Source: Owenia fusiformis (Eukaryota; Annelida; Polychaeta; Sabellida; Oweniidae). Taken from it: a DNA stretch of 64,000 nucleotides. Both the position numbers and the translations under genes were made by a program. Positions 7,062-47,455 of the stretch are shown piece by piece. The stretch spans positions 20,463,375 to 20,527,374 of the forward strand of contig CAIIXF020000005.1 in assembly GCA_903813345.2 (NCBI GenBank), given 5' to 3'. The notes beneath the pieces were generated by a model that had not been told where the DNA came from, did no database searches, and saw only the letters and a list, made by a program, of their open reading frames with translations. Each line of letters begins with the position of its first letter. Position 1 is the first letter of the stretch.

Positions 7062-7649
7062 ATATCTCGTCTGACGTCATAATCATATCTGACTAACCTT
7101 GTGAGATATCTCAGGGTGCTGTACAATAATTGTCACACTATTTGTATCAATAGTCTTATGAAATAGTGTAAGGGTCACATGGGGAATACCGTTGGGTGCA
7201 ATTGAAATATATTGTCATTGGCTTCACAATCATGGCATAAAACATAGCACAGAGGGTGTTATTACAGTCCAGTTTATGCTGATATGAAACATGCCACTTT
7301 GATCAAGTTTTCATCACAATGACCAGTCACCAGCAGAAAACCTACAAAATAGCTTTGGTCAGCAATGAGTTTAAGTCTTGTTCTGGAGAGTAATAACATG
7401 TATGTTTACCTGTCTGACATGTGCAAAGTCTGCTACTTGATGGAGCTGCCACTGTAGGGAGGGGGCATAGCCACTAGGTGGGGGAAGGACTCTGGACTGA
7501 AAAATGATTGGCCATGTATAATGTACAGAGAGACTTCATCATGATTAATGTTGTATAATATGTATAATAATATAATTCTAGTATATATATTTGTATTAAT
7601 AAACTTATCAAGATGCAACAATTAAATAAGGAAATCTGAAATTTCATAA
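7062..7649. other. Intergenic DNA, nothing recognised
   Basis: AT-rich sequence with no supported gene or clear repeat. The short ORF at 7433-7621 (minus) has no family features. Confidence 0.5.
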
Positions 7650-22454: not shown

Positions 22455-22506
22455 ATGTTGAAAGTAGTCATATTATTATTAGCTTGTCTAGCAAACACAT
22501 ATTCAA
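22455..22506 (+). CDS. Exon 1: initiator Met and signal peptide
   Basis: Encodes MLKVVILLLACLANTYS, a short basic N-terminus plus hydrophobic core typical of a secretory signal. The ATG has A at -3. Donor GTAAGT; ends in phase 1. Further non-coding 5' exons may exist; possible acceptors end at 22410 and 22440. Confidence 0.85.
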
Positions 22507-25500
22507 GTAAGTATACCATACAACGTACGTTGTGTGCATTACTACATGCATGATTTTTTTTAATTTAATTTTTGAAGCAACAAGTACAGTTGGCCTCTAC
22601 CAATGTATACCTTACAATCTCAAATATTATTCTCCCAAAAGATCCGTGATACGTTACAAAGTGGGGAAATGTTTAAAATCTCCCAAATATCAATGGTAAA
22701 CATATTTATAGAAAGATGAATATGTTGTTGTAAAAATCTTTAGTTTTCCTCAAATACAGTAAACATTGTAGGCTTTTTAGAAAATAGACATGACTAAGAA
22801 ATGACATGAGCCCAAAATATTCTAGAATTTAAATAATTTTTGTCTAGAGTACTCTTTAGAATCTTTCTAGATCTGATTCTGCCTTTAAAATGTGAAAGTA
22901 TAGTCAGATGCATAATGTTACCAAATTTGATCTCTTGATATGTCAAAAAAGAAATTTGAAAATCATCTTATATTCAGCATTGTTTTTGTTCCAGTTACCA
23001 TTCCCCCACTTATCCTAGAACAGCCACCTCAAGATGTTGCCTTCAAGATAGATGAGAGTATAGAACTGAGGTGTATATCCTCAGGATCTCCTCAACCACA
23101 GTATGTATACAGTGATCTTGCATTAGAGCAAATAGTTGATGCACCAGACTGAGAAAGTGACATTTTCCTAATTGCACCAAATTGAGATTCTGATATTTTT
23201 TTGCACCTGATTGAGAATTAAACATTTTCTCAGTATGTATACCTAGCTGAGAATTTGAACCCTTTCCTTAGTTTTACCTGAGCTGAGTTCTAGGTAAACC
23301 CACATGCTATACTAAAAAAAAACACTTAAAACCAAATCAATTTATCATTCAGGTACAAGTGGCTTTGGAACAATGAAGATTTTGATGCTAGTGGTAATGA
23401 TGGGCGTGTTACCCAACAGCCAGGTGTAGGAACTCTGATCTTTAGTAGACCCATAAAGAAAGATGAGGGCACATACCAATGTATCGCAGAGAATCAATAT
23501 GGGAAATCACTTAGTCAGAAAATAGTTGTTAGAATTGCAGGTAGAAACTATTTATTTTCTTTATTTTAAGTGTTCATCAATTCTGAAAAACAGATGTTTT
23601 AAAATATATATTAAATAGAATATATGATTTTTGCATTTCTCAGTTGGAAGTCAAAAATCATTTTCACTGTAATGACTACAAGGGCCACATTGTTGTCAAA
23701 GAATCTAACAAGGCAAATATGTGCATTCAATCAAGTTAAGTTTAGTGATATCTAGTTACAGTACATAAGGATTTAAATGGGAATTCAGTAGTCACATTAT
23801 ATAGAGTATTTATTTATCTCTGAGAACAAATCTGTTTTTAATTTCAGTATTAGAAAAATTTCCCCAGCGGGATAACCCAGTTGTTTACAGGCCATATGTT
23901 GGAAGCCCCCTGACACTGAACTGTGTTCCCCCAGTCAGTTATCCACCCTCAGAGGTATTCTGGTCCATAGTAGAACCAGGAGAGAGGTTTAGACCCATAG
24001 ACACCACAAACAGAGTTACAATGGATCATTTTGGTAAGATAAGTGTCAGTTAACATAAAGTGGCCACTGCACCCACTTGAAATTTTGAAAGTAGGCTTGC
24101 CCCCACCTGAAAATAAGAAAAATCAGTCGGAAAATATAAGCATATTTGACCACCTTTTGTGACAATGATTTAATAGTATTTGTTTAAAATTGGGGAATGT
24201 AAAAGGTAACAATATTCCAGTGATACATAGAAACATAGAATAAGCTGAATGGTTGTATGTCTTTCAGGAAGCCTCCACTTTGCCAATGTTCTCCAAGAGG
24301 ATCGTCAGGATGGTAGAAAATATGTGTGCACAGTGCAGAACAAGTTTATGAGAGCTTTTGTGCAGGGAGAAGATGCCATTATTGAGCCACAAGGAGGTAC
24401 AGTACAATTCAATATTTATTTGATATAGCATTCTGATTGGTTCATCAAATCATGACAAACGACATGTGGTATAAAATAGAATATGTCCACATGAAAGATG
24501 TACTCTATTTAATTTAGCTTAAATCACTTGCTTATGTTACCAAGTATGATCAAAAAGTAGTGGATGCTTTTTTGCTCTCATATTAATGCCTATTTGATAC
24601 GTTCAATGCTTAGAACATTAAAGAATCAGTTATCGACATAGACAATTTGGCTATTATTGAGTTTCATATTTGTATAAAGTACTATATTGTATATCATTAA
24701 AGGGATATTTGTTATTGTATATTTTTTTAGTTACTGTTAGTCAACTTAATTTGGAGAATTTTGCAAATTGCAATACATGTACTCACCAATCCAATTTTTC
24801 AGAAATCCCCAGTAATTTTCGTCCAGTGTAATATGTTTAGTAAAATGGTGCGTCGCGGTTCAAATATTCAAGATTTGTTATTTCCAATAAATTGAACCAT
24901 TTTGTGTTACAAAGTCGCAATAAGATAGCATCCACTTGATAAGTAGAGCTTATGTATTCATTTAGATGAATTTGAAGGTATTAAAGCATTACTTTGGGTC
25001 TAAGTGATTGATTTTTTTGTGCTAACTCTATCATCGCCCATCTAAATGAAACAAATTTCTATCATTTTCTGAAGGAAATACAGTGTAAAATGCACATTGA
25101 TTCAATTTAAATCTCTACTTTGGCTTCCTTTTTCAATTTTTTTTATCCACCTGGCTTATGATTCATTTGAATGAGGACCATTAATACTTGTTCAACCCAC
25201 ACCTGTGAAATTCACCAATTTCACAGCTATTTATTCTTGCTAAATTCACCAAATTGAATCTTCGCCAATTTTGCCCAATTCGTGAGCGACAGCCTTTTGT
25301 GTGGGGTACTACATATTAAAGCTTTTTGTTATTATTAGAATTTGTGACTTGCCAGGTTGGTGTAAAATATGGTTAAACATCATTCTAAGACAAATTCTGT
25401 TTTCTATGAGTCATATTTGTTAGATTCACGTATCATGTTGTCAGATCATGTCTTTTTATTGCAATTGTTTGTATTAATTCTGTTCAATGTGTTGTAAATG

Positions 25501-28500
25501 TTGACTTATTCCTTAGATACGATTCAATCACGAAGTGCAAGTCTTCGTTGGGCTTCTCCAACAACTCAATGGACTCTCTTGGGGACAACCCATAGAGTGA
25601 AATGTATCTTTTCTGGCATGTAAGTTATCTAGTCTTAAGGCCAGTGTTCCCTGCTTTACACAAAGAAATCAGGTTCGTGAAGAATTACATGAAAACAATG
25701 CAGAAAATATAAGGAACAGAGTGTTATTTTTCAATTCTCACACAAGTTTCCTCACATTTGTCACACATGAGCCAATTCAAAAGAACATTCAAAAGCTTTT
25801 TATTTCTAATTTTATTTTCATTGTACTCAAAACAATGTAATCTTCTTCACTAGCATGAGCTCTTCAATGGTTTATAGTTGGATGCCTTCAGTATAAGACA
25901 ACACCCCTCCCCCTACCATATAAGGTAATATATCATGGCCAAGAGTGTGAAAATTCCTTATTTAAGTGTCAAAGCATTGAGTTTCATGTTCCTAAACCCT
26001 GAAATGCCTGTATGTAAGAAGCATTAATTAAGAGCTTTACCCCTTTTAAGCTATATGCTGCATATTTATTCATATAAGCATTCCCATTTCCCAATCTAAT
26101 GCATTTTGGTAGGTAGTTATAAATGCAAACAAATTATTGCTTACATACTAATATAATTTTTTTTTTATCTTTCAGACGGTATGCATCTCCTGGGCATCAT
26201 TTTGTCAAGATTTAGCATTTAATGTTGTAGCCTAATAATATATTTTTTTATTTACACCAGACATTGTTCAGAATCGGGGTGCAGTACTAGAATGGTCCTC
26301 ACCATTTCGTATCAACAGATTAAAAGGTGGAATTGTACGATTCATGTGTTTATTCTCTGGAATGTAAGTTATAGTTGAGCAACATTGTTTTCCTGATATG
26401 ACTTTCCAGATAATATTTAAGGCGAGCAGTTGCTTGCTGTACTAATATTGATCTGGTGCTGTACTATTTCTGTGCTGGGCTTTATTTACAGTTGGAATGT
26501 AGATAGTTATGCTGTAAGGCTTAAAACACATAACGCTTCGCTTGTTTTGCACTTGATTGATGTGTTTTATTTTACGCTAGATATTGTTCAGAATCGTGGA
26601 GCAAAGCTAGAATGGGCTTCACCATTTAGTATCAACAGATTGCAAGGTGGAACTATAAGATTCATGTGCTTATTCACTGGGATGTAAGTTGAGCAAGAGT
26701 GTTCTCTTTAATGATTGGCACATGTATGCGGACACTATATGCACTTTGGATCTGTACTAACAATAAGTGTGTTAGATGTTCTTCAAGGTTAATATTTCTG
26801 AAAATGTTTACATATTGGAAAATGATTCATCGATCAAATATACAGCCAACAATTTGATTTAATAAATGAAATTGTTTACACAACAGTACTCTTCATGAAA
26901 CTCCAGTATATATACTGTATGTACCTGTATCAAGAATCCATGTAAACAATTTCCAATGCATGTTTAATAGTTTATTTAGTTTGTATCTCATCTTTAGTTG
27001 GAGTTATGATGCATGTTGTTCTATAATCTGTCCTTATATTTCATACTTCATTTGCTTTTTTTAAACATTTACTATTGAACATTGCCTGTATTTTTTATCG
27101 TACCTAAAAAAGGTACGATATTGTCATCAGTGGGCGGGCTGCGTCTCAATTTTCTTATCATCATGATTCCAGGAAAGCCACTTCATGGATTTACTTCAAA
27201 TTTTTACACATGTTACATGGTAAGAAGTTCTAGAGCTGATTATCTTTTCGGTGGCCATCTTGCATTCTGGTGGCCATTTTGGAAGTTTTTAGATAAATCT
27301 TGTCATAGTAATTCCATGAAAACCACTTAACTGAATTTACTTTTTGGTGGCCATCTTGCTTTCTGGGTCAACAAGCCCACACTGCTATGTTTTAGGTACG
27401 CTATTGTTCACCCTGTGCCTTATTTGTTTTTGATCAACACTTTATATTTCTTTTGGGGGATAATCCCCCTCTATGTACAAGAATGTAATATATTACATTA
27501 AATAGTTTTTCTTAAAATGTCAAGTTTATTATGATTTTAACATTAAAAGGTTACAAATTAATGAATATTAACATCCATTTTTACTCTAAACAATAATGTC
27601 AATTTTATACACAGACATGTACATGTCCTTGCAGAAAATGAGTCACTCCTTTGCAGAAAAAGAAAAATAGATTTATTATCCCATCGAACGAAGTTCGGAG
27701 GGATATAGGGAACGCCTCCGTCCATACGAACGTACGTTGGCCCGATTTTGTTCATGTTTTGTACCCTATGGGGGTAGAAGTTCTGCTCAAAAGGTGATTT
27801 TCAAAATGGCCGCTCATTTAAAAATGGTGGCCATTTTAGTGCCTATTTTACAGTAATTTAGGTGCAATATGTAAAACTGTAGCAATATGTTTTAAATGTA
27901 TGAAAATTTATATAGGACATTATTAAAGCTAAGAAATGTAGATATTTAAGAAGCACATGGCAGCCATCTTGAAAAATGGCGGCCTTTACTCGTTATTTTA
28001 CGATTTTTGCTGTAACTGGAAAAGTAGAGCGATTTTGTTCACATTTGGTATGTGAATATCATAAGCTTGGCACACTGTCTAATGACACTTTTGATAGAAG
28101 GTGGCCATTTTTCAAAATGGCCGCCATTTTAATGTATATTACGATGACTCGAAAAGTAGTGGAGCGATTTTGTTCATATTTGGTATGTGAATACTATAAG
28201 CATGGCACACTGTCTAATGACACTTTTGGTAGAAGGCGGCCATTTTAAAAAATGGCCACCATTAATATATTTTGCTATAACTGGAAAAGTAGTGGGGCGA
28301 TTTTGTTCAGATTTGGTGAATACTATAAGCATGGCACACTGTCTAATGACACTTTTGGTAGAAAGTGGCCATTTTGAAAAATGGCTGCCATTTTTGCTAT
28401 GTAATTTGTTTGTAAAAATACCAGCCATGGCTGTTCGATGGGAACTAAAAGGCATTTGGCGTTGCTGTTGTCTAGTTATGCTTGAAATATGTATAGTGCC

Positions 28501-31500
28501 TGTTACTTTCAACCTGGACTATTGTTAGGTATACCTTGTACTTACACAATGCAAATTTTGTGTTATACATGTAATCATCTTTTACAAATGATAAAGAAAT
28601 GTTTAAGACTTAAATCATGTATTTACATAGAAAACCTGAAAACAACCTAGATTACAAATACATACAATTACCTTCTAAATATTTAAATCAATGTCTAGTC
28701 TTTTACTTGTTTCTAAATGTTACCTGTTGATATGAACCCAAATTTCTACAAATTATTTGTTGATTTTCTAGGCCTACCCCAAATGTTGAGTGGGATCGTC
28801 TTGATGGCAAAGTAATGCCTCCTAGGTCCCGATTGGAGAGTTTTGGTCAAGAACTTGTCTTAGAAAATGTACAAATTGATGATGCCGGGCAGTATGAGTG
28901 CTCTGGGGAAAATACTGGTATTCCTATTAGAAAATCTTTCGACTTGGTTGTTGAAGGTACGAAAATTATTTATTTGTTCTTCATATTATCTTCAATTTAT
29001 TTTTGTAATTTTGTCATAGTAATAGTGTTTCTGAATGCACTGTAACATATATAAACGTACAGTATGCAACAGAATCAGAAGGTGTTTTTATCAACTTGCA
29101 GTGAATTAAAACTTGATAAAAAGATTGAATGACTGAAATATTTTCTAGCCAAACCATATTGGCGTAGCCCAGACACGAGACCTAAGAATATCCAAGCTGG
29201 TGAGGGGGACAAAGCCACCTATATGTGTATAGCTGATGGTATCCCTGCCCCACAGGTATTCTGGTTCATCAATGGTAGACCTTTGTCACGTAAGTGGATT
29301 CTTTGCCTTAACATGTACAACTATGCATTATTTCATGAGCGAAAATATATTGATAACATCTTCCTCTTTATGAGCTAAATCCAAAAATGATTGCCTTTGA
29401 TGTTTTACATTCATGGATTATTCAACTTTCAGTGTTGATTTATTGTATCAAATTGAATTTTTTTATCAGGGTTTTGTTTGAATTTTGCAACTCACAGTTT
29501 CAATGTTCAAACTCGAACTCTGACTTCCAATACATTTTGCCTGTTCACTTAGAAACACTACCACGTGGAATCAGCTGCTCACTTCCACTGTCCTACAGGC
29601 GGGTGCTTCCCTTATTGCATGCTTTTATTAAAAACCAAAACAATCCTGGGTTGTGTGTCTAAGTGTGTTGAATGTGTTCATGCATTTTGCATATTATCAT
29701 CAATTCTATTGAGACATGTTTATATTCATGATCTGACACTATTATTTGCTTAATTGTAGAATTGGAAGCTAATCCTTATAGACTGGTTAATGGAGGTAAC
29801 ATGACATTCATCAACTTGATGAAGGAAGACACACAGAATATCCAGTGTAATGCTACTAACAAGCATGGTTATATATGGGCAGATGCATACCTCAATGTAC
29901 TGGGTATGTAGTATCTTAAGACACATGAATTAGATTAAATATTCTCCGGAACTGTACTTGATAGAATTTCATTTATGTAGTTGACAAATTGGGTTTAAAT
30001 CATGTAAACAAAAATATAAAAAAAGGAAATCAAATTTTATAATGCTCCAATTGTCAAATATAGCTTCAACCATGTTGGCAAAGCACACCTACAGTTACAT
30101 ACTGTTAGATTGGAAAGTTAAATAAATCAAGTTAAATGTCGCTAAAAATATATTAGCACTAGTATATATGTGTACAGTCTATGAGCTCTAGGCAACTACT
30201 TACCAGTACTGGGGCAACACCCCAACTGACATATGAGTGAATGTGATTGCCATAATATTGAACACAAAACATTAGAAACAAACAATAGATTGTGAAGTGA
30301 ACTCACAATACAAAGCACATACAAAAGGCTTACGGACAACTCATCCCCTATACAAATCATCCCTGGACAACTCATCCCCTGGACAACTCATCCTTTATCA
30401 CCGGAAGCTAAATTGTAAAGTCTTTCTGGAAAAAAATATTAATTTTATACACCTTTAATCATTCAAAATATTATTTTACACTCTATTGACACAAAAATAT
30501 GATGAAAGTTCTTATTTGATATTAGTCAAACGGTGCCAGTAAAACTCCCATTTCTTGTCATTATATTACATCACTCAATATTTCATTACAAAAAAGTTTC
30601 CTTCCTGTATAACTTGGAAACATGAACTTATTAGTAACTTCATCTCTGAATGCTGTGAATTTTTGCTGTAACTTGAAAAGTAGTGGAGCAATTTTGTTCA
30701 TATTTGGTATGTGAATACTTTAAAGTGCCCGATAAAGTATAAAATGCGCATGCGTCCAGGTGTTGATAAACTATAAATAGCGAAAACCCAGGGTTTGTCA
30801 CCACAAGGTAAGCCAGGACGTGTTGAGAGAACAGCTAGTGTTGATATTGAATTTATATGTAGCCAGATAAGTTTCCTTATTGAAATTACATATGGTTATT
30901 AGCAATACTTTGTAGGTGCTAAATAATAAAATATTTAGAGTATATATGAGAGAAATTGGTCATTTCGAACCTGTTGAAAAGTTTGTGGCTCTCGGCTACA
31001 CCGGGGAATTTACTTCCATGAGTACACACATAAATGTGGGGTTCCCCAAGAGGTACGCGACAAGGTGACCTGACATCAAATGTGCGACTAAATGCTACTA
31101 TCGAGAAGATAAAATAACGAATACGACAATAAGTTATTGCATGTGACAATTCCGAGCCTTCATCTCGCTGAAGTATTTTGAAGTGAAAATAGGATTTTTG
31201 TTTTGATACATACTTTATTCTGACAACTAATCAAAACTGAACAAAATTGATTGTACGTAACAGACAATTTATTGTTTTACAATGTTTTGATTGGCTTAAC
31301 GAATGAAACCAACAAATTATGACATGTAAAATGACAATTTTGAAATGTAAAATTTAAAAGTGACAAACACATCCTCCCTATCCACTCTTTGGGAGCCCTA
31401 GTAAATTAGTAATATGTACATGCAGCAGTGGTAGTGTGCAGCTTATTATCACACTACGCTTTGTATTCTAAAGCCTGTTGTTTGTAATAACACTGTTCAC

Positions 31501-34500
31501 TCAACGTATGTTTTGTGTGTGGGCAGTCAACGATAATCATTGTTTTATCCCGGTTATATGACCTCGGCAATTATAACAAAACCGTACTAAACGAAAAAAC
31601 GCAAATAAGAGAAAGCTTTCACACACATATAAAAAATGAACTAGTCTAATCCGCCAGTATAAACTCTGTGCTATACGTAGCCGGGTCAGGCGCACACTTT
31701 AAGCATGGCACAATGTCTAATGACATTTTTGGTAGTAGGCGGCCATTTTGAAAAATGGTCGCCATTTTTACGTGTGTTTTTTAACTTTTTTTTCAATGTA
31801 AGTCAAAAAGTAGTTGAGTGATTTTGTTCATATTTGGTATGTGAATACTTTAAGCATGGCCCAATGTCTAATGACATTTTGGGTTTTGAAAAATGGCCAC
31901 CATTTTTTACTATAACTTGAAAAGTAGTGGAGCGATTTTGTTCATATTTGATACGTGAATACTTATGAGCCTTGCACACTGTCTCATGACACTTAGGTGG
32001 CCATTTTAAAAAATGGCTGTCTTTTTTACTATAACTCGAAAACTATTGGAGCAATTTTGTTCATATTTGATATGTGAATACTTTAAGCATGGCAGATTGT
32101 CTGATAAAACTTTGGGGAGTAGGAAAAATGGCCACCATTTTGATGTGTATTATTTTACATTTTTTATTATAATTCAAAAAGTAATAAAGCGATTTTGTTT
32201 ATATTTGATATGTGAATACTCGTAAGGATTGCATACTGTCTTATGACATTTTGGGTAGTAGGCGGTCATTTTTATGATATTTGCTATATATTTTGTTTGT
32301 AAAAATGCCAGCCATTTCTGTTCGATGAGATTCGCTACGCTTTGGCGTTGCTGTTGTTCTGGTTGAAATTGTATATTAAAAGTAAAATTAAAAGTAAATA
32401 TTAACAAAACAAATCGCAGATTAATTGGTTGATTATATCAGTTTTTTAACAGTTTTCCTGATTTCCCCTTCAGAAAGTCTGTGTTCATATTTGTAATATA
32501 TGTTTTTGAAACTTCAAACTGATCAAATTCATAACCAAAACATTTAAAAATCATTTGAATATCAAATATGAATTGATAATATAACATTAAATTAATCGAA
32601 CATGCCAAATGATGAGTTGTCCAGGGGATGACTAAGTCTAGGGGATAAATTGACCAAGGGATGAGTTGTCCAGGGGATGAGTTTTCTAGGAGATGAGTTA
32701 TCTGGTTACCACACAATAAATAGAAAACAATAGAAGTGCATATCTAAGTTAATATTGTAAGTGAATGAAAGGGACCTGTTAAAATGAAATGAAAACTTTA
32801 ACATAAATGGGGATTGGTCAATATAAAAGTATGAAATATAGAAAGATGAAAATGAGCAGTTACAATTGTTTCTCATAATAATAATAACTAGGCCATTGAT
32901 GCTATGTATGTAAACCAGCTGTTTTGTGCATTGCACCTTATCTACATCAACAAATTCAAGATTCTAACATAATTGAGAAATATACTTATTTTTGTGTTGC
33001 CCTCTATGTAGATGAGAAGCCAACTATAATGGAGACCCCAGGCACTGTGAGGGTTGCTGAGAGTCAAGATGTACAATTGAGGTGTAAGGTGTTTGGTGCC
33101 CCAAGACCTGTGGTAGTCTGGAAGAGAGGGAACATGCAGCTGACTGGAGGTCGATACACTACCTTGCCAGATGGCCATCTCAACATAACAGTAAGACTGA
33201 TTTTTGCTATTAGCCCTTGTCACTAGGGATGATGCCTGAATGGTAAAAGGAAGTTAATATTAATTATGCAATAAAATAAGAAAAGGCGAATTTGGTATTC
33301 ACATGTTGATCATCTTTTTTACTTGTGCACCATCCTTTATTCAAAATTTTGGGTCACACTTACAAAGGTTTCAGACATATTGGTTGAAATACTGATCATT
33401 TGTCAAGTTATTACCTCACTGAATGAAGTTTGCAGGGATATATAGAAGCTGTCTGTCCATTTGTTTGTTAGTCCAGGGGATAACACAAATACCCATTGAT
33501 GGATTTGGTTCAAATCTTATTGGCTTATGCCTTATGTACCAGTTGACAAATCTGTTTCAAATTTTTTATGCTGATGCCTAGGGACATGGCATCCCTGCTC
33601 AAAATTATCTTTCAAGGTGGCCACTGAATTTCAAAGTGGCCACCATTTTTAATAAAAATGTATAATTTTTGACCAAAATAAAGGAATTTGGTCCAGATTT
33701 TGTAGGCTAATAATATATATGGTCAAAGAACCTCTGCTTAAGGAGGCATGTTCAATATGGCTGCTCATTCAAAATGTCTACCAATTTGATAAAAAATGTA
33801 ACGTTTAATAACTCAAATACCTGTTGATGGATTTGGTTCAAATTTTATATGGTGATACCATATCAGGACATAGACATGTGCTCAGAAAGGAATTTTCAAA
33901 ATGGCTGCCTTATTTTATAAAAATATTTTTTTTACTCAAATACCCATACCAAATACTAAAGTTTATAAAATATGTTTTGTTCAGTGGGATTTTCTACTCC
34001 ATGGAGTTGCTGTTTGTTCATGTATGACAAAGTGTGTACTTTATGCGTACTTGCTTCACACCTTAATGCTGTACTTTTCAGGATGTCTCTGCTGTGGATG
34101 CTGGCATTTATTCCTGTACAGCTACTAACAAGTTTGGTTCAGCACATGCCAATGGCAGTCTTATAGTGAGAAGTATGTTTCTGAAATATGTTTTTATTGT
34201 AAGAACGTATTGGTATCGATAAGCTTATATCCTGAAATTTGTGTCCCGAGTGAACAAATTCACATCCTCTTTGTCTTAGACCCAAACACTCATACATTCA
34301 TACCTGAGCTTTTCATTACTGACTCCAAACAAAGCAACACTCAAATGACCATCTGTCCAACAATTTCGATAATAATGGGAATAAGAGGTATTTGTTACTT
34401 GTTTCGTGTATAGCATTCGATGTGTGTGATATTCATGTATTACTTGGCTATTTGTTGACATTTAAAGCCATTTGGAGGAGCTATATGAAGTAGTATAATT

Positions 34501-36438
34501 ATCATGATTCATAAACGTATTTGTCATTTTACGGGTAAAAGTCCCTCTTAGTTGATTCAGAGCATCAAAGTATACTTTGGTCAAATCTCAAAGATATACC
34601 ATACCATGGATTATTGTAATTAAATGTCCAAAAATCCAGTAGTAAATATGATAACATTCTCATATTCAGGAAACGCTCCAGTCAGGTTTACATTAAGATG
34701 AAAACACTGTGGTATCTAGATAGTTGTAGGGAGAAGTAGTAGTTGTAGGTCCCTTGACTTTCCTTTTTGAATATGTTAAGTGGTAAGAGCGTTTTCCTGA
34801 GAACAAGTGATGGGTTTGGACTACTAGTTTGATAGAAAGCTTGACATTTTCATATAAATACAATTTCAATGCAAATTTTAGTACAATTCTTCAACTTTAG
34901 ATTTGTGCGATCCACACCGTGTCTTCACATCTCACAATTTTTTCATGTTTTGTAGTTGCATAATACACAAAGTGTACATTTGGCATATTTTCTCTCATCA
35001 AAAGCAAAAATATCATGCAGACAAAAAAACATTTCTCTCATTATTTCAGGACGCACACTTATTCGTACTGCACCCCTTGACATCACCGTCCCTGTTGGAA
35101 CAGAGGCTAAGTTCACATGTACAGCCACCACAGATCCAGAAGAAATTCAAAATCTCAAAATTGATTGGAAGAAAGATGACCAGATTATTGACTACCGTAC
35201 AGCTCAGCGTGTGTTCAAGAATATAATGGATAACTCTCTCACTGTCAGTGGAACCATCAGTTTAGACACTGGGAAGTACACATGTATGGCCCATAATGGG
35301 CTGGATACGGATGAGGCGAGTGCCCAGTTGGTTGTCCAAGGTAAGTCTGTTCTCTGCTGTAATTATTTCATAATAATAAAAAAGCAATACCCTTTATGGT
35401 CACAGCATTGTTACTAAATGCTTCATTGTGTATAAAGCAATTTCACAAGAAATGGTAGTCACCATTCAATAACATTGAGTCATAAATTAAAAGGTAATAC
35501 TTTTAATGGTCACTGTATTGAGCTTTGTAACTTATGCCTCATTGTATTTATCTGATGTTTAGACATTCCTGATCCTCCAACCTCCGTGACTGCAAACTGC
35601 AAGCGTGAAGAAGGCAAAGCTGAGGTTGAATGGCAACCAAATAAGGAGAACTATGCACCCATTCTCAACTTCATTGTGCAGTTCAACACAACATTCAGTC
35701 CTGACACTTGGCTAAATGCTCGCGAAAACATCACACAGAATCAACAGAAAGTCATCATTGACCTATCACCGTATGGTAACTACAGTTTCCGGGTTCTGGC
35801 CAGGAATAAGATTGGAATGTCCAACCCCAGCATGCATTCAAAGACAATATGCACCACCCTGCCTGGTCGGCCAAGGAAGAATCCCGATAATGTTCGTGGG
35901 GAGGGAGATGCCTCAACTAACCTGGTTATCACATGGACAGTAAGTTCTCATCATTTCGCCTCTTTTTAAAAATCTGTGTTCTAATGAAAATTTATGATAA
36001 CTTTCAGTAAAAAATATTAAATTAAAACATTCTGTATGGTATTGTACTCTGGTTTACCCTTGAATACCCTATGCACCTGAAAAGATTTATTGCAAATACT
36101 TCCTTGAAAATCTCAATTGTAATTTATTTATTAACAGCCAATGCCAAAGATAGAACAGAATGCTTTGGGTTTCCACTATGTGGTGTACTGGAAGAGGGCT
36201 GATGATCCTGATGCACTTGAATACAATGAAAGAATTGACCAGCCAGAGCGCAACTACTTGAGGTATGTCTATATGTTTCACTATGCCACTTTATTTGTCA
36301 AAGTTCAAAGTGTGTTCATATAAACAGACAAAGCTGTAGCCATGTTTATTTGCAAGGATTCTGTAATACACCATTCACCTCCCTCAAATTAACTGTTTTT
36401 TAGCTCACATGGTGAGCTATTGCAATCACTCACTTGTC

Positions 36439-36469
<31 letters not shown>

Positions 36470-39400
36470 CAATCTGTCAACAATTGGCCAGTTTTAAAAC
36501 CTCTGTCAATAGGATTCCTGTTTTAAATTATTTTTGTTCAACATCAATATAGAAAAGCCCCTATGACTCCTGGTTCAAAAGCTCGCCTATTTTGTAAATG
36601 GCTGCCATTTTTGTCTCGCGAAATTCACTTTTTGACCATTTGGCTTAAAAATTCTGTCGATAGGATTCACGTTTCAAGTCATTTTTGTTCAACATCTATA
36701 CAGAAAACTCCCCTATGACTCCTGGTTCAAAAGCTTGCCTAATTTCAAAATGGTCGCTCTACAAATAATTTCAGGTTTCCTGCATTGTAAAAAGCCATGT
36801 CACTGTAAAGAGTAGTTGTATGAAATAATTTTGTTACAAAGAATCGACAAAAAGTTATATCCGTTTTTTTATTTTCAGCCATTTTAGTTAACATTGATTT
36901 GTCCATCTGTCTCGCGAAATCCACTTTTGGACCATTTGCCTTAAAGGCCCCATATAAAGTTTAAACCACTTTGGCTTATATTGTAGTCTTACCCAATGTT
37001 ATCAAAGTATGATATGTGAAACTTTTTTTTTAAATTTCAAAAAGTGGTTTTTGATAGACTTTTTGTTCCAAAATTTGTGAATTTATTTAAAACCAACTTT
37101 TAGAGGTCACTCATATCTTCTAATTAGCCACAATTCATACCAATGCATAGCATTCATCCTCCCATGTTTTTTGCCGAAAAAATTAAGAAAATCGGTTCAT
37201 AAATAAGCAAGAAATGAACTTATTAGCGCATGAAAATGGTTCTGAGAAAAATGCATTTCAAAATTTTAGTTCTCATAGAAACAAATGGTACAATGATATC
37301 TAAAACATAATTTATTCTTCCTTTTAACCTGTTTAGACAATCAACATTGTTTTTTATGAAAGTCTAACATATTAAGAAAAGATTGACATCGAAAAAAAGT
37401 TTTTGGTACCTTAGTGACATCACTAATGTTTCAAAATATTTTTGATATGTTAAAACATTGAAGTGGCCCATTAAATATGGCATTTTATTATTGAAATAGT
37501 GTGTCCTTTCTTCAACCTTTGCATTGGTGTTAAAAAGATAATCTTTTTTGAAATGCATTAAGAAATATTTGATGATTAAGAAATTTCAACTTTTTTTGAA
37601 AAATGGCGGGAAATTTGAATATTTGAGAAATGAAATGCTCACAACTTTTTTTTCAAAAATTTTTTTATTCAAAAATCTCTAAAACCACTTTTTAAGTCCT
37701 GACAAATAGTAAATGAATGATAAAAAAATATTTTCAAACTTTAGACGGGGACTTTAAAACCTCTGTCGATAGGATTCCAGTTTAAAGTTATTTTTATTCA
37801 ACATCAATACAGAAAACCCCTATTGACTCCTGGTTCAAAAGCTTGCCTATTTTCAAAATGGTTCTATTTTTAATAATTTCAGGTGTCCTGTATTGTAAAA
37901 AGCCATGTCATTGTAATACAGTACTATTTAAATTCCTTTCTACCAATTCTTGAGAATGAAATAAAATGTCTTTCCGGACCTTGTTGGAACAAAATAACAC
38001 ATACAACATTTTCTTATACCTCTCAATATTATAGTTATACAAAGGATTTAACAAAAAGAATGCAAAAACTTAAAACAAAACCCCCCAATGAAATAAAAAT
38101 TGAGATAAAATTTTTATTTCATTAACAAGATAACTTTTTTAAAATCAACCAAACTTTCCTCCTTTGTACTGTACAATATTGAGAGACCTAAACATGTTGT
38201 GTTTATGTCGTTTTGTTCCAATGAGGTTCGGATAGATGTTTCATTTCATTCCGAACATATGATACCAAGAACAAAAGAAGTGTCTGATGTGTTTTCTAAA
38301 ACAATATAGAGAAAAGTATATATATACAGGGTGGTCCAAAAAAAAGTGAACCCCTGCAACTGGCCATATTTCCCTTATTACTTGCAGGAATTCTTTTTTA
38401 TTTTCACATGTTGTAGAGGAAGGTCTAAAATTTATGTTGGTACCATACATTTTTCTTAGTCTTGAAATTTGCAGAAATTATAAGCCCTAACCAAATATTA
38501 CTGAAAATGGACAAATTGTGATTTTCAATATCCGCGATTCTTCAACCCTTTAACACCTGTCCCCTGAGAATTTTTTAAGCTGCAGTCTTAAAGAACTAAT
38601 ATTTTCTGACTTTGTTCAATTTTAAATCCTGCACATTATGGCTTAAACTAGCATCCTACATTTGTTAGTTGCAAAGTTATTGTGATCCAAAGAGATTAAG
38701 CTTCCACAGACAAAAACATTTTCCAGTGAAATCATGAACATACCCCTATATGATCTTGAAATGTCAATATCTTCATAAATCATGGACCAATTCTCATGAT
38801 ATATGGCTCAAAACATTGAGCATTGGATTTTCTTTTTTTTTTAAAGATATTTGATGAAGGGGTTATCAGATTCCTGGTCACAGGGGGCAACTTCCTTCCA
38901 TAAGAGGCCCCCTCTAATTATTGGTGTAGGTAACATACCCCTGAACTGTGGAACAGTTAAAAATGCATCAAAATGATCAATGAAAGTGTGAAATGTGTTT
39001 TCTGCTTGATTAGTGTCCCCTTTATCATATGGTAGGGTTTTAAACTTGTATCTCTAACTGAAAGCTGTTTAAGATCATCCAATGTGTTTCAACAATTTCT
39101 GTGAATCACATTTGTAAAATTTTGTACAATATCTAATTTCCAGGCATGTTTGTTAAAAAAATTGTAATTTCTTCAGTATTTAAGACTGAGAATAAATTAT
39201 GGCATCAACCAAAATTTTAGACCTTTCTCTACAACGTGTGATAATATGACCCAATTCATGCATGTATTAAGAAAAATGTAGCCTGTTGCAGGGGTTCACT
39301 TTTTTTTGAACCACCCTGTATATATTTCAAATTATGATATTACCATCCAAAAGATGACCTTTAAATTGACATCGTGTAAATTTTTCAGAATGTTTTGATG

Positions 39401-42400
39401 ACTAGTTTAAGAGAAACGCGTGTTTAAAAGGTTCACCATATCGAAACCACTCCTTTCCTGCCATTTTTCAAATAAAAGTTGTAGTTTTCTAAAAAATCAT
39501 CAAATATTCCACTATACAATGCAAAACACAACATCTTTTCAAACATCTTTGCAAAGATTGGACAGATGACACCATTGAACCACTTTCATGTGAAAAAACA
39601 CTTTTTGAAGTTAAAAAAAAGTTTCACATATCATATTTTGATAACATTGAGATAGACTACAATATAAGCTAAAGTGGTTTAAACTTTATATGGGGCCTTT
39701 AAACCAAGTAATGCATTTAATAGTTACTCGATGCTTGTAAAGCTATAAAAAATAAGCACTATTTTTGTTCTAATTTTATTTATTCAACTTTGAATAACAT
39801 GTCTTGAAGGTTAAAAATAAATGCAGAACATCAAAAAATTTGAATATTTTATATTTTCTCCATCAGGGTCGACAACCAGCCTGTCTATGTACCTTATGAT
39901 ATTCGTGTGAGATCCTGGAATGCAGAGGGCTCAAGTGAAGTGGAACCAACAGTTGTTACTGGCTACTCTGGTGAAGCTGGTAAGTCAAACTATTCTACAG
40001 TGATATAGACATACATCATTTTCTTCAGAAAGCATTACTGTATAACATGAAATATTGACGTGGATATAAAGTTGCCGATTGCCGAATGTAAAACAGAAAT
40101 GGCAACATAAATTTCGGAAATATAATTAAGTAATTGAAGATCGATCTTAGTGGGCGATAATATGGTAGTTGTCTAACGTGCGTTAACTTACTGTAATAGG
40201 GTAATTTTCGAACGAGTATCAACGATAAAATCGAAGCTTTATTCCCCAGCATAAAATTACAATAAAAAGTTAATAATAAAAATGTTGCAGTTAAAATGCA
40301 TGCAGTAAAATCTATAAAATATTAAAAGGATTGTCATGTTAAAGAGTTAAAATGTCAGAAGATCTAATTGTATCCAAGTGCTTTGGAAATCCCAGTATTA
40401 AAAGTTTTTAATCCCAATTTTAAACGTTTTTAATCCTGGTATTAATTTTCCTGAGCCTATGGAATGCAGGTATTATGTGAATAAATCACTCGAATTGTCA
40501 CTCATAATGTCAGGATGTCAGGTTTTCTGAGTCAGTCAAATGAAGGTGATTAAAATTCAGTTGTAAATCAAAATTATATTAGGGGTGTCAGCGTAGCAAT
40601 ATTTTATTTGGCTTTACATTTAGGGGTGTCAGGTCGGTAAACTTATATTCGGCAATAACAATTTTAATCCAATTCCGAAAATAAATCATCCGGATTTAAT
40701 ACATGTTATACAGTATACTGTGCATCGAAATCAATATTGTCAGCATAGTATTCAATAAACATGAGTATAATGATTTCCGTTGACACAAACGTGATATTGC
40801 CCGTTCTAAACATGAAACTGAAGCTGTTCTGGTATTTGAAGTAGACTTCTTAGCGCTTGTTTTGTACGCGCGCTATATACATTACTGTATTGATTCATGG
40901 ACTTTGCGTTTGCAGTTGCATTGTGAAAAACATCGCTAGCTTAAAGTCTCCATTCAGAAAAATCACCCAGTTTACATAAAGTTCCTAACTCTCTGGAACT
41001 TAACTGTGAAGTTACAGAAAACAGAAAACATGAAATGTGGTTTTCCACTTACTCATTTTCTAAATGTTTGATGATTATCACTTACACTCTTATGCCAAGC
41101 TCCCAAATTGCTTCAAACTGAGAAGTAACTTGGCCATTTAATGTTCATTGACATGAGCATATATTTAATATATATTTTATTAATGTTTCATGTGAGAAGG
41201 GCATTGTACAATTCTATTTGTGATATAATATACATTTGTTTTGAATTATATTGCAGAGCCTCTTGTGGCACCACAGAATTTCAACTATGATGAGTCAACA
41301 TTGACGGCTACAGAGTGTACTTTTACCTGGGACCAAGTTGATACATCCCCTTCTCAGATCAGGGGCTACTTCAGAGGGTACAGGGTAAGTCATGTTTCTT
41401 TATACAATCAGTTTTCTTGCTGGTTAACCCTAGATGTGCGTTGAGCGAGTTTACTCGCTTTGACGTCACATTCCATGTAGACGATCGGCGAGTTTACTCG
41501 CTTGATAATGTTGAAAGTGTTTGCAAAAAGTCAGAAGTCTTTACTTAAATAATTTGCTGCTGTTCTTCTCCAAATGTGATGGTTTTGATAGTTGATGGTG
41601 TTGTTAACATTCATACAACATAATTTTTACAAAATAAGTTAATTAGACACAATAATAAATGAAACAAAAATAAATTTAAACTTTTCATTTCGAAAATATT
41701 GACTGGTAGTTCGAAACCGGAAGTAGTCGTAAGTGAACAATTTATTTTTATTTTTTGGATTAAATTGAAGAATACTCATCAAATATGAGAAATCAAAGGG
41801 TTAAGATTCCTCTTGTGTAGTGCAAATGTTTAAGTATTTAACCATGCATACTACATGTAAAATAAAATACTACAAATATTTCCCGAAAGCCTTACATCAT
41901 TTTTCAAAACTTATAGTTCCCATAATTTTACTAAAAAATGTGCCTGTTTTAGAAATATCAAAACAAGATATTGAATATCACTATTGTTTATAGCTATTGT
42001 AGCTAAGACCAGCAACTGACCAATTATGTTTGAGTTTTCTACATTAGAATAGACAAAAATGATTTCTGTTTTTTATTTTTAGATCCAGTACTGGGCACAA
42101 AAGGATGGACCACAGGAGATGCGAGAAGAAGATATCATTCTGATAGATACACGTTGGTCTGATGGACGTCGTAAGAAGCGACAGTTGCCCTCAACCGTCT
42201 CGTACAGGGTGAAACATCTGCCTCAGTACCAAGAAGTGATTGCAAGAGTGTTAGTGCTAAACAAACGATATGCTGGACCCACTAGTGCTGAGCTTTCATT
42301 CAGAACCAGAGAGGGGGGTAAGACAGAATGTTTTAGACATTATTATTGTTAAAAATACCAATTTACATACTTGTCTTTTAGTTTTCACTTTTATTTGATG

Positions 42401-45400
42401 AGATGAAACACTATGCATAAAACTTTGCTATCTTGAAAATGCACTTATTAAAATATCAGTGCTTCAGTCAATGAGGGAAACTGATATTATTATTCCACCA
42501 AACGAAGTACTAGGGGGATATAGGAAAGCTGTCCGTCCTTTTGTCTGTCCTTCCGTTTGTACGGGCGATAACTCAAATATTGGTTGACGGATTTGATTCA
42601 AATTTTATAGGCTTATGTTTTATAGGCTTATGCCTTATGGGGGTAGAATCTCTGCTCGAGAAGGAATTTTCAATATGGCCGCTTAATTCAAATGGCGGCC
42701 ATTTTTCATAAAAAATGTAATCTTTGATTACACAAATACTAGTTGACGGATTTTGTTCAAATTTTATATGCTGATGCCTAGGGACAAAGTAGATTTGTTC
42801 AAGAAAGAATTTTCAAGATGGTGGCTGAGATTTTACAATTGCCACCATTTTTTTCTTAAAAATACTTAATCTTTGATAACTGAAATACTAGCTGATGGAT
42901 TTGGTTCAAATTTTATATGCTGCTGCCTAGGGAAAAAGGACCTACCCTGAAGAAGAGATTTTTAAAATGGCTTCTAAATATCAAAATGGCGGCCATATTT
43001 CGTACAAAACGTAATCTTTGCTAAATTAAATACCATTAATGGTTCAAATTTTATATGATGATGCCTAGGGAAAAAGTAGATTTGTTCAAGAAGGAATTTT
43101 CAAAATGGCTGCTGAATTTCAAAATGGCTGCCATTTTTCATAAAAAACCGTAATCTCTGATAACTCAAATACTAGTCAACGGATTTAGTTCAAATTTTAT
43201 ATGCTGATGCCTAGGGATAAAGGAGCTACGCTGAAGAAGAGATTTAGAATGGCTGCTAAATACCAAAATGGCGGCCATTTTTTGTAAAAAGTTCTCTGTT
43301 TACATATTGTTATAAAGTTTTAGGCCATGTCCTGATAATCAGTGGCTGTGCCAATAAATAAATAAATTTGTTATACTCAATGAAAGGCAATTTAGAGTAG
43401 ATTGTAAATATTGTATCGGTTTTGTAATTTGGGCCTCGTAAAATTCAAAATGGTCGCTTATGTGGAATAATTTTCTCTCTTCAAAGTATGGCTATATTCT
43501 TTTCAAATTGAAAGAAATTTAGGAGATTGTTTTTGTTTTGCTGATTTGTGCCTCAGAAAATTCAAATTGTCTTTATTTTTTGTGTCTTTAAATGGTCACC
43601 CAAAAAATGTTTTTAAAATTGGTAGAAATTGTGATATATCTCTAATGTTTCCAATGTTTATATATTTTTTGTGACAAATAAAACTTCATATATGTTATAA
43701 TGTTCGTTGGGATTTGCTACTCCGTAAGGTTGCCGTTTTCTAAAATGTTTAAAATGATTTTTGTCATTTTCCAGTCCCAGGCCCTGTGTCCAGTTTTGAA
43801 CTTTTAGCAGTTGGTCAGAACCACTTTGATCTTAAATGGGGCAGACCCATACAGAACAATGGTATCCTGACAGGCTACCAGTTGGCTTTCCAAAAAAGTA
43901 AGTAAACATCGTCAACTGTATTTCAAACTGACTCGGTTATCAGACAAGAAATACAAATTGTGCATAACAGTATTTCACAAGTAAATACCTTTATGAAAGA
44001 GTGTAACAATTACTAAGGTATGCACAGTAAAATTAATAGTTCATTTTATTAAGCTAAAAAAGATTAAAATGAATAATATAATTTTGTATAATAGCATGAT
44101 GCATGAAGGTATAAATAGGCCTTCCTTAACTTTTTCATTTTGTGTTTCCAGTCAAAGGTTTGAATCTAGATGTGCTCCAAGAAAGACCCCCTATAATGAA
44201 CGCAAGTGCCACTGAGGGCAGACTGAATGGTCTCCAGGCTAGCACAGACTACAGGGTGTATCTGTGGGGTATCACCCAGAAGGGACGTGGAGAGGAATAC
44301 TTCATGGACCTACGAACATCAGATCCTGGGCGTTAGAACCTTATATTATTATTCATAATTGTATTAGTTTTTATTTTTCGTAGAGGTCTACCTGGTTAAT
44401 ATTAGTTTTGATCCTGAGTCACTAGTTTTCAAGAAACATTACATTATCATTTTGATTTTTTCAGAGGTCAGAACTGCGAAAAAAGAAATTAACCAATATT
44501 GCTATAAAGATGGCTAATCCGGCGGATCCATCCACCTGATTTCAAACTTTTAAAAACTTAACTTTTTCGCGCCAATCTTATGATCCAATTAGATTGCCCG
44601 ATTTATTCAGTGCCTTACATGACTTCCTGTTGACCTAGAAATGGCGATCTTTGGAAAAATATTTCCCAATTCAACAATTTAAACAGAATTTTAGTCGTTT
44701 TTAGTGAACAAATCATACAAAATGGCGGCCAAATATGATCACAACGAAAATGTGGAGGAAATGGATTGCGATTTTGAGCTCTTAAGGCTCTTGGAAGCCG
44801 ATAATGGCCATCGAAAAAAGAAACTAGAATATTTTCTGAATGGAAAAGTTGAACATTCGATCGCTACAAATTCAGTTTTGGATTCCGAACAGACGTTGAA
44901 GCTTCCCAGGGGCAAAACGGCGGAAATGCGAAGGAGTATTCATGGTATATTCATGCCCGAGTCATGTTTATTTACGAAAAAATTCATGAGAATTTATTTC
45001 CATGAGCCAGGACGGTGAATCTTCCTTTTGTGAAAATTTTATCCAGATTCATTCAGTAGTTATTGAGATATTAATTTTTTAGTCCAGGCATATCATTTTT
45101 TGCACTCTTTGAAAAATAAACCAGTCGCGTGGGATATATTTGCTGAAATAAGGCAGCATGCTTAAGGTTAATTAGCTCAAGCCCTGGTGTGTAGATACCA
45201 AGGCAAAAGATGGCAGTTCCTGTTGAATAATAACATGAAAAAATCTTAATGCAAAATCACAGCACATTAAAGTTAAATGTGCCAGTTTAACATTGTTTCT
45301 TCAAAATAACTGTTATTTAGGTATGTTACACCATCTTGTTAAAGTTGTATGATCTTGATTTATTGGGTTATTAACGTCTTGACTACCAGAGTGATGAGAT

Positions 45401-47455
45401 TTCTTGTCACCTAAAAAACAACTTTGAAACCCAGAGTGACAAGATAATCTGACAAGAAAAATTTCACTAAAATTGCTCTTATTTGAAGAAACTTCATTCA
45501 TTTTACACAAAATAACTTTTAAAAGTGTAGAAAACATCTCTGCCAACTGATTTCACTAAATTGAGCATCACCTGTTGTGTAAGCATGTATATATAGTTAC
45601 ATGTCAAAAGCTGGCAAAAATGAAAAATTCTCTGGTTTCACACACATTTTAGAGCCTGGGATTTAAGAGGTTAAAACTTGGAGAATTTTTTTCAAAAATT
45701 GAATTTGTTTGCCATTTCAGCACCAGGAGCGCCATCATTTGTGATCACTAATGTTACGGAGACTGCTGTCAACTTGACGTGGGTACCCTCCCGTTCTGGC
45801 ATTCCTGGTAGTGTCTTCTATGTACAGTTCCGAAGACAAGGTGAGATAAGTGTCATACTGCTAGGTTTTGATTGTAGAAAAATGAATTTTTCAATCATAA
45901 AAAGAGACAGAGTTTAGTTGAAAATAGTTATGAAGAACATTATTACACTCGGAGGTAGTTAAGTTGTCAATCATTATTTTTTATGACTGAAATTTCCTAC
46001 AGAATTTTGTTTTTCATCATCCTAATTTCCTAATTTTGAGTGAATATTTTTTGAGGAACAATAAAGGTCATTGAGGTAAATCAAAATATAGCGTCAAATT
46101 ACTAAAGAAGTTGATTTTGAACTGTGAAGTGCAGATGTGCAGAATCACCAAAAGGTGGTGTGACATTCTACATTTTCTTAGTTCATTTTTTTAGTTAGAG
46201 GGTGTTAAAGGGGATTTAAGTTAATTGAAATTCTATATTTGTGAAAATGTTGATTTTGAAGAGTAATTTGGGTGAATGCAAATCTACATTTTAATATTAA
46301 GTGAATTATTTACTTTATGTTGCTTTATAGGCAAGTGGGAATGGCAGCAGAGTCCTGATGTGTATGCTACACGCTACCACAATCTGACCAACTTAGATAC
46401 TGGCAGCTATTATGAAATCAGGGTGATTGCAAAGAATGGAGCTGGTGACGAGACACCTAGTGCTATACAGGAGGTCTGGACAAAAGGAACTGGTGAGAAT
46501 ATTTCAAATAGTTAATAGGGGTTTCATGTCTGTTTTGTACTAATACTGCATTTTACCATTATTATTTTACCATTATTTATTTTACCATTATTTTTATTTG
46601 GTATATAAATTATGTACTATGACGTTAACTAAAGCGAATTCAAATAAATGGCTCCACCAAAGGTATTTATTATGATATCATTGGTACAGTTGATAAACTT
46701 GGAAAATTGATAAATTCAACATAATTATATTGTCATTAAATGAAACATAGTGTAATGTTATGCACTAATATTACTTTATTTGTTTCTAATTTCAGAGTCT
46801 GTTCAATCATTCATTTCTTTCCTCTGGCTCCTCATCATGTTATTAGTCCTCCTCATTTTCTTCATCCTGGTTGGCCTTGTCTTCTACTTCCATAAGAAGT
46901 TACCTGAACGACAAGAAGGTAAGCAAAATTCAACAACAGTATCTTCATGCCTTAAATTTTTATTTATTTCATGGTATTGTATTACTTGATGAATATATGT
47001 CAGTTGAATAACAAAAAAGTTTGTTAATAATACAGTGAAAGTCATTCTGAGATTATTCAGCATTTCATTTGTCACCAGGCATGCTAGATTATGCTCTGTA
47101 CATAAGGCTTGTAGTGCTTAGTTCCTATCATATATATGTATGCCTTTTAGAGGATATTGTGACACAATTTTTATCAAGTTATTTTGGTCGACCCAAAAAT
47201 CAGAACCCTCTAAAAGTGTAATAATTCCTAAATACCCATCCTATCAACCCAACTTTTTATGTGCATTAACTAGAATCTATGGATGATAATATGATATTAA
47301 GTCTTTTACACAAAATTCATTATTTTCGATATCATGAATGATCTTAGAATGTGTCCAATTTCTGGAAAATCAACATTGAGACAAAATCATATCTTGAGAT
47401 TTTATGAGGAAATTCCGAAGAAGATGTGAAATGAAAGTCTCATTTAATATTTTAA

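Follow-up and report, generated by a model that had tools for sequence, protein, structure and literature searches.

The window, that is, the whole 64-kb stretch of DNA analysed here (contig C5, 20463375-20527374), carries on its plus strand a gene with 24 exon positions, extending from 22455 to 58344; positions without a contig prefix refer to the window. Exon 1 (22455-22506) contains the start codon and the signal peptide. The Ig1 to Ig4 domains are encoded by two exons each: exons 2 (22995-23100) and 3 (23353-23540) for the first and second halves of Ig1, exons 4 (23848-24033) and 5 (24268-24396) for those of Ig2, exon 6, described below, and exon 7 (28772-28956) for those of Ig3, and exons 8 (29149-29289) and 9 (29760-29903) for those of Ig4. 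Exons 2-4 and 7-9 were assigned from the gene model and an alignment with neurofascin, together with Pfam matches, which were weak for Ig2 in exon 4. One version of exon 5 was found, ending in phase 1, and exon 7 enters in phase 2. According to the gene model and Pfam, exon 10 (33012-33190) encodes Ig5, exon 11 (34082-34172) the end of Ig5, exon 12 (35050-35340) Ig6, and exons 13-21 (35563-46492, introns included) five FN3 domains. They are followed by exon 22 (46796-46918), with a transmembrane segment, by exon 23 (57047-57134), tentatively cytoplasmic from its frame and splice borders, and by exon 24 (57900-58344), which encodes a cytoplasmic tail ending in STFV before the stop, without a FIGEY match. 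The 1337-residue protein comprises a signal peptide, six Ig domains, five FN3 domains, a transmembrane segment and the tail, the signal peptide and the transmembrane segment having been recognised by eye.

The original prediction had placed this gene in the L1 family, a view that stood with respect to layout and closest relative. The family layout of six Ig domains, up to five FN3 domains and one transmembrane segment was found in the gene model. Pfam Ig matches passed for Ig1, Ig3, Ig4, Ig5 and Ig6; the Ig2 match was weak (19.5 bits, cut-off 30), and its assignment rests on the neurofascin alignment, which covers this domain. Four of the five FN3 domains passed, and FN3-2 fell just short, with 24.7 bits where 25 are required. 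Among Protein Data Bank chains, Ig1-4 matched neurofascin best (E 5.7e-64 and 2.2e-58), then contactins (contactin-2 at 4.7e-45, others weaker) and Dscam (1.5e-34), and the segment from the end of Ig2 to the start of Ig4, taken with version 6a of exon 6, matched neurofascin (5.6e-33) and contactin-1 (4.2e-25), indicating that the horseshoe is nearer to the L1 family than to the contactins. The part that did not stand concerns the Bravo/FIGEY ankyrin-binding domain (PF13882), which was absent from the Pfam matches of the 1337-residue protein, so that one defining L1 feature was not detected; in the genome, this domain was found at E <= 1 in two places only (C5:16.459 Mb and C1:40.313 Mb). A small FIGEY exon may have been missed in the 10-kb intron 22. 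Judged by its layout and sequence, the gene is L1-like.

Exon 6 is represented by three tandem versions on the plus strand, each encoding a first half of Ig3: 6a (25517-25619; DTIQSRSASLRWASPTTQWTLLGTTHRVKCIFSG), 6b (26261-26363; DIVQNRGAVLEWSSPFRINRLKGGIVRFMCLFSG) and 6c (26581-26683; DIVQNRGAKLEWASPFSINRLQGGTIRFMCLFTG). All of them are 103 nt long, enter in phase 1 and leave in phase 2, and have AG/GT borders. Read in the frame that exon 5 dictates, they contain no stop, and the Ig cysteine occupies an identical position in each, within the motif C[IL]F[ST]GM. The coordinates, lengths, phases, cysteine and borders given in the original prediction were borne out. The neurofascin alignment showed that exon 6 spans the linker between Ig2 and Ig3 and continues into Ig3 until shortly after the first cysteine of that domain.

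Base identities were 86/103 between 6b and 6c, 48/103 between 6a and 6b, and 52/103 between 6a and 6c; at the protein level 6b and 6c differ at 7 of 35 residues, while 6a differs from both in about half. With 6a as the query against five stretches (24.0-29.3 kb of the window and four other L1-like loci, composition statistics off), 6c (E 7e-8) and 6b (E 1.7e-6) were recovered at their exon borders. The full 64-kb window with default statistics gave 1.4e-6 for 6c and 9e-5 for 6b. Across the 498-Mb genome, in a search where weak matches and matches in withheld stretches can be missed, four matches were obtained at E <= 1, namely 6a itself, a paralogue on contig C4 (see below), 6c (0.011) and 6b (0.36). 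By these comparisons, the likeness of the three versions is beyond chance and they are homologous. Versions were detected for exon 6 only: the 24 exon translations searched against the window (E <= 0.01) revealed none for the other exons, with a minus-strand match of exon 20 (E 0.007) disregarded and exon 22 missing even itself, probably through low-complexity masking. The highest-scoring acceptor-like site in the region (26160-26182; 26176 is the first base after the AG) is followed by a GT at a distance of three bases and does not adjoin any recognised exon. The idea that a fourth version begins here was rejected, as nothing exon-like follows the site; it could be a decoy or a relic.

Exons 1-5 were joined in silico to each of the eight combinations of 6a, 6b and 6c, and these to exons 7-24. 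Each version on its own joins both exons 5 and 7, as had been predicted, and the three single-version transcripts are open to the stop at codon 1338, giving 1337 amino acids. The other five of the eight combinations stop early: at codon 235 without exon 6, at 295 with 6a and 6b, at 271 with 6a and 6c, at 271 with 6b and 6c, and at 299 with all three. The frame shift foreseen for two versions or none was therefore confirmed, and the inclusion of all three (309 nt) was discarded as an in-frame form, since it leaves the frame as skipping does and stops in 6c. The introns between 6a and 6b (641 nt) and between 6b and 6c (217 nt) are long enough for splicing, so double inclusion is not barred by spacing alone. 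Spacing is therefore not expected to bring about exclusion; frame and decay suffice to render errors unproductive, and an active choice of some kind has to be assumed. The criteria given for mutually exclusive clusters in the available part of PMC3228551 are adjacent exons, similar length, the same splice-site types and frame, and homologous sequence; 6a, 6b and 6c lie next to one another, are alike in length, splice-site types and frame, and are homologous in sequence. Mutually exclusive splicing of the Ig3 half-exons is probable, and we give a probability of roughly 0.8 to the reading that the locus encodes an L1-like adhesion receptor in which exon 6 is present in three tandem versions, with one used per productive transcript.

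The pattern of change among the versions is relevant to their use. Between 6b and 6c, 17 of 103 bases differ, with 8.8 changes at 23.7 synonymous sites and 8.2 at 81.3 non-synonymous sites (dS 0.516, dN 0.108; Fisher p 0.003 with rounded counts, on 35 codons), which supports purifying selection that has kept the protein since their split. Their flanks share 26 of 50 bases upstream and 13 of 30 downstream in ungapped comparison, and gapped 60-mers gave identities of 0.53 and 0.57, against 0.48 +/- 0.05 for random sequence. A conserved protein between largely diverged flanks is the pattern that two coding exons in use would leave. The 6b-6c match nevertheless covers 131 nt (26240-26370 with 26560-26690), so that it overshoots the exons by ~20 nt on the upstream side and by 7 nt on the downstream side, with 20 nt more further on; since similarity extends beyond the exons, part of their likeness reflects a duplication that is not very old. 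Between 6a and 6b or 6c, synonymous sites are near saturation and dN is 0.59-0.70. The sequence distances indicate that the 6a split is far older than that of 6b and 6c, yet the proteins are still alike.

The paralogue on contig C4 (C4:8817500-8827400, minus strand) has exons 1-9 open and bordered as in the window gene, but lacks the donor after exon 9; its frame runs on and ends in LNVLAMHLT-stop, so that it would encode a secreted Ig1-4 horseshoe. The one exon 6 found there is of type a and is flanked by intact exons 5 and 7, so the 6a type is shown to be compatible with both. Synonymous change exceeds non-synonymous change per site between the two genes. The best conserved of the nine exons is 6a (97/103 identical), compared with 48/52 with a gap in exon 1 and 0.81-0.88 in the other seven. 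Synonymous change in 6a is unusually low, at 1 in 26 sites, where exons 2-5 and 7-9 together have 71.7 in 246.8 (p 0.004; exon 1 left out); in non-synonymous change, 6a (5 in 79) does not differ from them (79.3 in 833; p 0.42). A 35-nt intronic block downstream of 6a (25682-25716, plus strand) is 33/35 identical in the paralogue, the best of eight intron comparisons (runner-up 30/35), and is a candidate splicing element. Together with the low synonymous change of 6a, this block points to constraint at the nucleotide level, for example on splicing signals; gene conversion between the paralogues is another possible source of the low synonymous change.

Splice-site scores, obtained with a small matrix built on the other sites of this gene, bear on whether all versions are used. 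The three donors are AT|GTAAGT and score 6.6, within the range of the other donors of the gene (1.2-11.7). The 6b acceptor scores 10.7, while the 6a acceptor is weak (-0.3, rank 68 of the 198 AG sites in the region) and that of 6c is modest (2.3, rank 35 of 198). The other acceptors of the gene range from -5.1 to 13.2, and those of exon 10 (-5.1) and exon 15 (2.1) are no better than those of 6a and 6c, respectively. The weak acceptors of 6a and 6c, and the presence of 6a alone in the C4 paralogue, would agree with only one version, either 6a or one of 6b and 6c, being in regular use, with the rest retired or rarely used. This seems unlikely, as a check for dead versions, by stops or broken junctions in two of the three, found 6a, 6b and 6c all intact in frame and borders, 6b and 6c have diverged with the protein conserved, and 6a is the exon best kept between the paralogues. 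Still less probable is a cluster that serves unproductive splicing, where skipping and double inclusion would produce substrates for nonsense-mediated decay and so control how much receptor is made, and the differences in protein would be of little consequence. The early stops in five of the eight combinations, and the small difference between 6b and 6c (7 of 35 residues), are what such a cluster could present, but the divergence of 6a from both in about half its residues speaks against it, and a poison exon would not need several productive versions.

In the preferred reading, with one version per productive transcript, the choice may lie with splicing factors or with RNA elements close to the individual exons, and nonsense-mediated decay would clear away faulty combinations. 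One specific form of this mechanism is pairing between a docking site and competing selector RNA sequences, as in the exon 6 cluster of Dscam1. The tandem homologous exons within a 4.4-kb interval and the conserved intronic block 25682-25716 are in line with it, whereas no shared selector was found in 24397-28771, and the block is known from a comparison of just two paralogues, of which the C4 gene has only one version to splice; we regard this mechanism as rather doubtful. Inverted repeats and tile duplexes examined over the same interval, judged by raw duplex energies, revealed no convincing pairing and no common selector. Many of the longer inverted repeats of the interval lie within the repeat-rich intron between 6c and exon 7. 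This intron also contains three tandem copies of ~106 nt (28023-28392), and similar stretches were seen by eye in other introns (near 30690).

The location of exon 6 suggests what the versions could do. Neurofascin binds itself and contactin through Ig1-Ig2, and its Ig3 packs on Ig2 through a turn; low-affinity clustering of contactin 1 through Ig3-6 is also reported (PMC9633819, in the portion of the text available). Because the neurofascin contacts lie on Ig1-Ig2, the main interface is less likely to be affected by a change in half of Ig3 than is a side contact or the turn between Ig2 and Ig3. The versions would most likely change the turn of the horseshoe, the packing of Ig2 on Ig3 or a free face of Ig3, and it is less likely that they alter the main homophilic contact directly. 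The case for an effect on binding is weaker than initially supposed, since the neurofascin homodimer is formed by Ig1-2. By tuning the Ig2-Ig3 turn or the face of Ig3, the versions may give rise to receptor forms that differ in their partners or in the strength of binding.

Four other L1-like loci of the genome were compared (C4:8.82 Mb, C5:16.62 Mb, C5:16.48 Mb and C1:40.30 Mb). Targeted queries found one exon-6 equivalent in each of them, which is a separate exon at C4, C5:16.62 Mb and C5:16.48 Mb, and is fused with the exon-5 equivalent in the C1 gene, where the second half of Ig2 and the first half of Ig3 form one exon (positions 7340-7588 of the stretch C1:40296000-40305900); intron 5/6 is present in the other four genes. 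The single equivalents at C5:16.62 Mb, C5:16.48 Mb and C1:40.30 Mb count against the preferred reading. The gene at C5:16482000-16491900 (minus strand) is followed by its Ig5, FN3 and FIGEY parts in order on the same strand. This FIGEY-bearing L1 gene contains two tandem versions of exon 5, encoding the second half of Ig2 (C5:16486337-16486218 and 16486156-16486034, minus strand; 120 and 123 nt, 61 nt apart), both with AG/GT borders and running from phase 1 to phase 1. Joining both keeps the frame, so their exclusion would depend on the 61-nt gap; gaps shorter than 50 bp make up >45% of those in the exon 6 clusters of beetle Dscam (PMC8042237, in the part available). A self-comparison of the five stretches yielded mostly repeats among the matches listed and was insensitive, since it missed this known exon-5 pair. 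Like exon 6 of the window gene, the pair consists of tandem half-Ig versions in an L1-family gene; it differs in encoding the second half of Ig2 and in being in frame, so that any exclusion would come from spacing rather than from frame. The pair and the exon 6 versions lie on opposite sides of the Ig2-Ig3 turn. From its sequence, the pair appears to be the best outside support for half-Ig exon swapping as a habit of the L1-like genes here.

The textbook example of half-Ig exons swapped for cell recognition is Dscam, and the variable domain of the Dscam1 exon 6 cluster is Ig3, as in the window gene. The predicted arrangement resembles that cluster of insects in its tandem exons for the first half of an Ig domain, of which only one is used at a time. 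It differs in having three versions, in contrast to 48 in the fly, and one cluster instead of several; the window gene is L1-like, with six Ig and five FN3 domains, and no convincing pairing of the docking/selector kind described for Dscam1 (PMC8042237 and PMC3228551, both in part) was seen in 24397-28771. A hypervariable Dscam gene with several large arrays was not what the locus contained, but a single array of three in a gene whose best relative is neurofascin. Neurofascin 155 is also an L1-family gene with alternative splicing at the Ig2-Ig3 junction, through an 18-residue insert in the linker (PMC9633819, in part), and in the Ig1-4 alignment the residues that 7ok5 has in addition to those of 3p3y are located near the exon 5/6 border; that insert is present or absent, however, while the window gene would choose between half-domain versions. 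Drosophila neuroglian is likewise an invertebrate L1-family gene with regulated splicing, but in the available part of PMC8055025 it concerns last exons only, the choice between them being controlled by Elav.

Half-Ig exclusive exons in Dscam1 and splicing at the Ig2-Ig3 junction in neurofascin are therefore already known. For exclusive extracellular exons in an L1-family gene, no report was found among the matches listed in the open-access literature, as represented by titles and the starts of abstracts (subscription papers and preprints fall outside this scope), which agrees with the original impression that this was undescribed. In the parts available, PMC1397879 and PMC5775551 mention Nrg in reference links only, and the Macrobrachium paper PMC9767951 has actin as its exclusive-exon example and neuroglian in its references only. 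If the reading is correct, this would be a second, small and independent case of half-Ig swapping, located at the Ig2-Ig3 junction of the L1 family, and the turn would be a place where evolution repeatedly tunes adhesion. A system of three isoforms is simple enough for all pairwise binding to be tested, and the cluster, with one old and one younger duplication, models the origin of exon arrays. More tentatively, and with a good deal of doubt, the L1 family of this lineage might possess a half-Ig swapping device on both sides of the Ig2-Ig3 turn that arose independently of Dscam, with versions of the first half of Ig3 in one gene and of the second half of Ig2 in another. L1-type receptors would then choose their partners by a small splicing code, and the secreted four-Ig paralogue, fixed in the 6a type, would be a possible competitor.

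Two minor observations concern the 3' part of the gene. The tail end STFV (58330-58344), in a protein without a detected ankyrin-binding domain, resembles a class I PDZ ligand. Intron 22, which is tentatively considered free of further exons, contains the remains of a retroelement on the minus strand (48599-51599), with a reverse transcriptase frame (RVT_1, E 1.7e-32, 50373-51221), and a minisatellite (55888-56824) of 22.3 copies of 42 nt with 95% matches, which is open in several frames.
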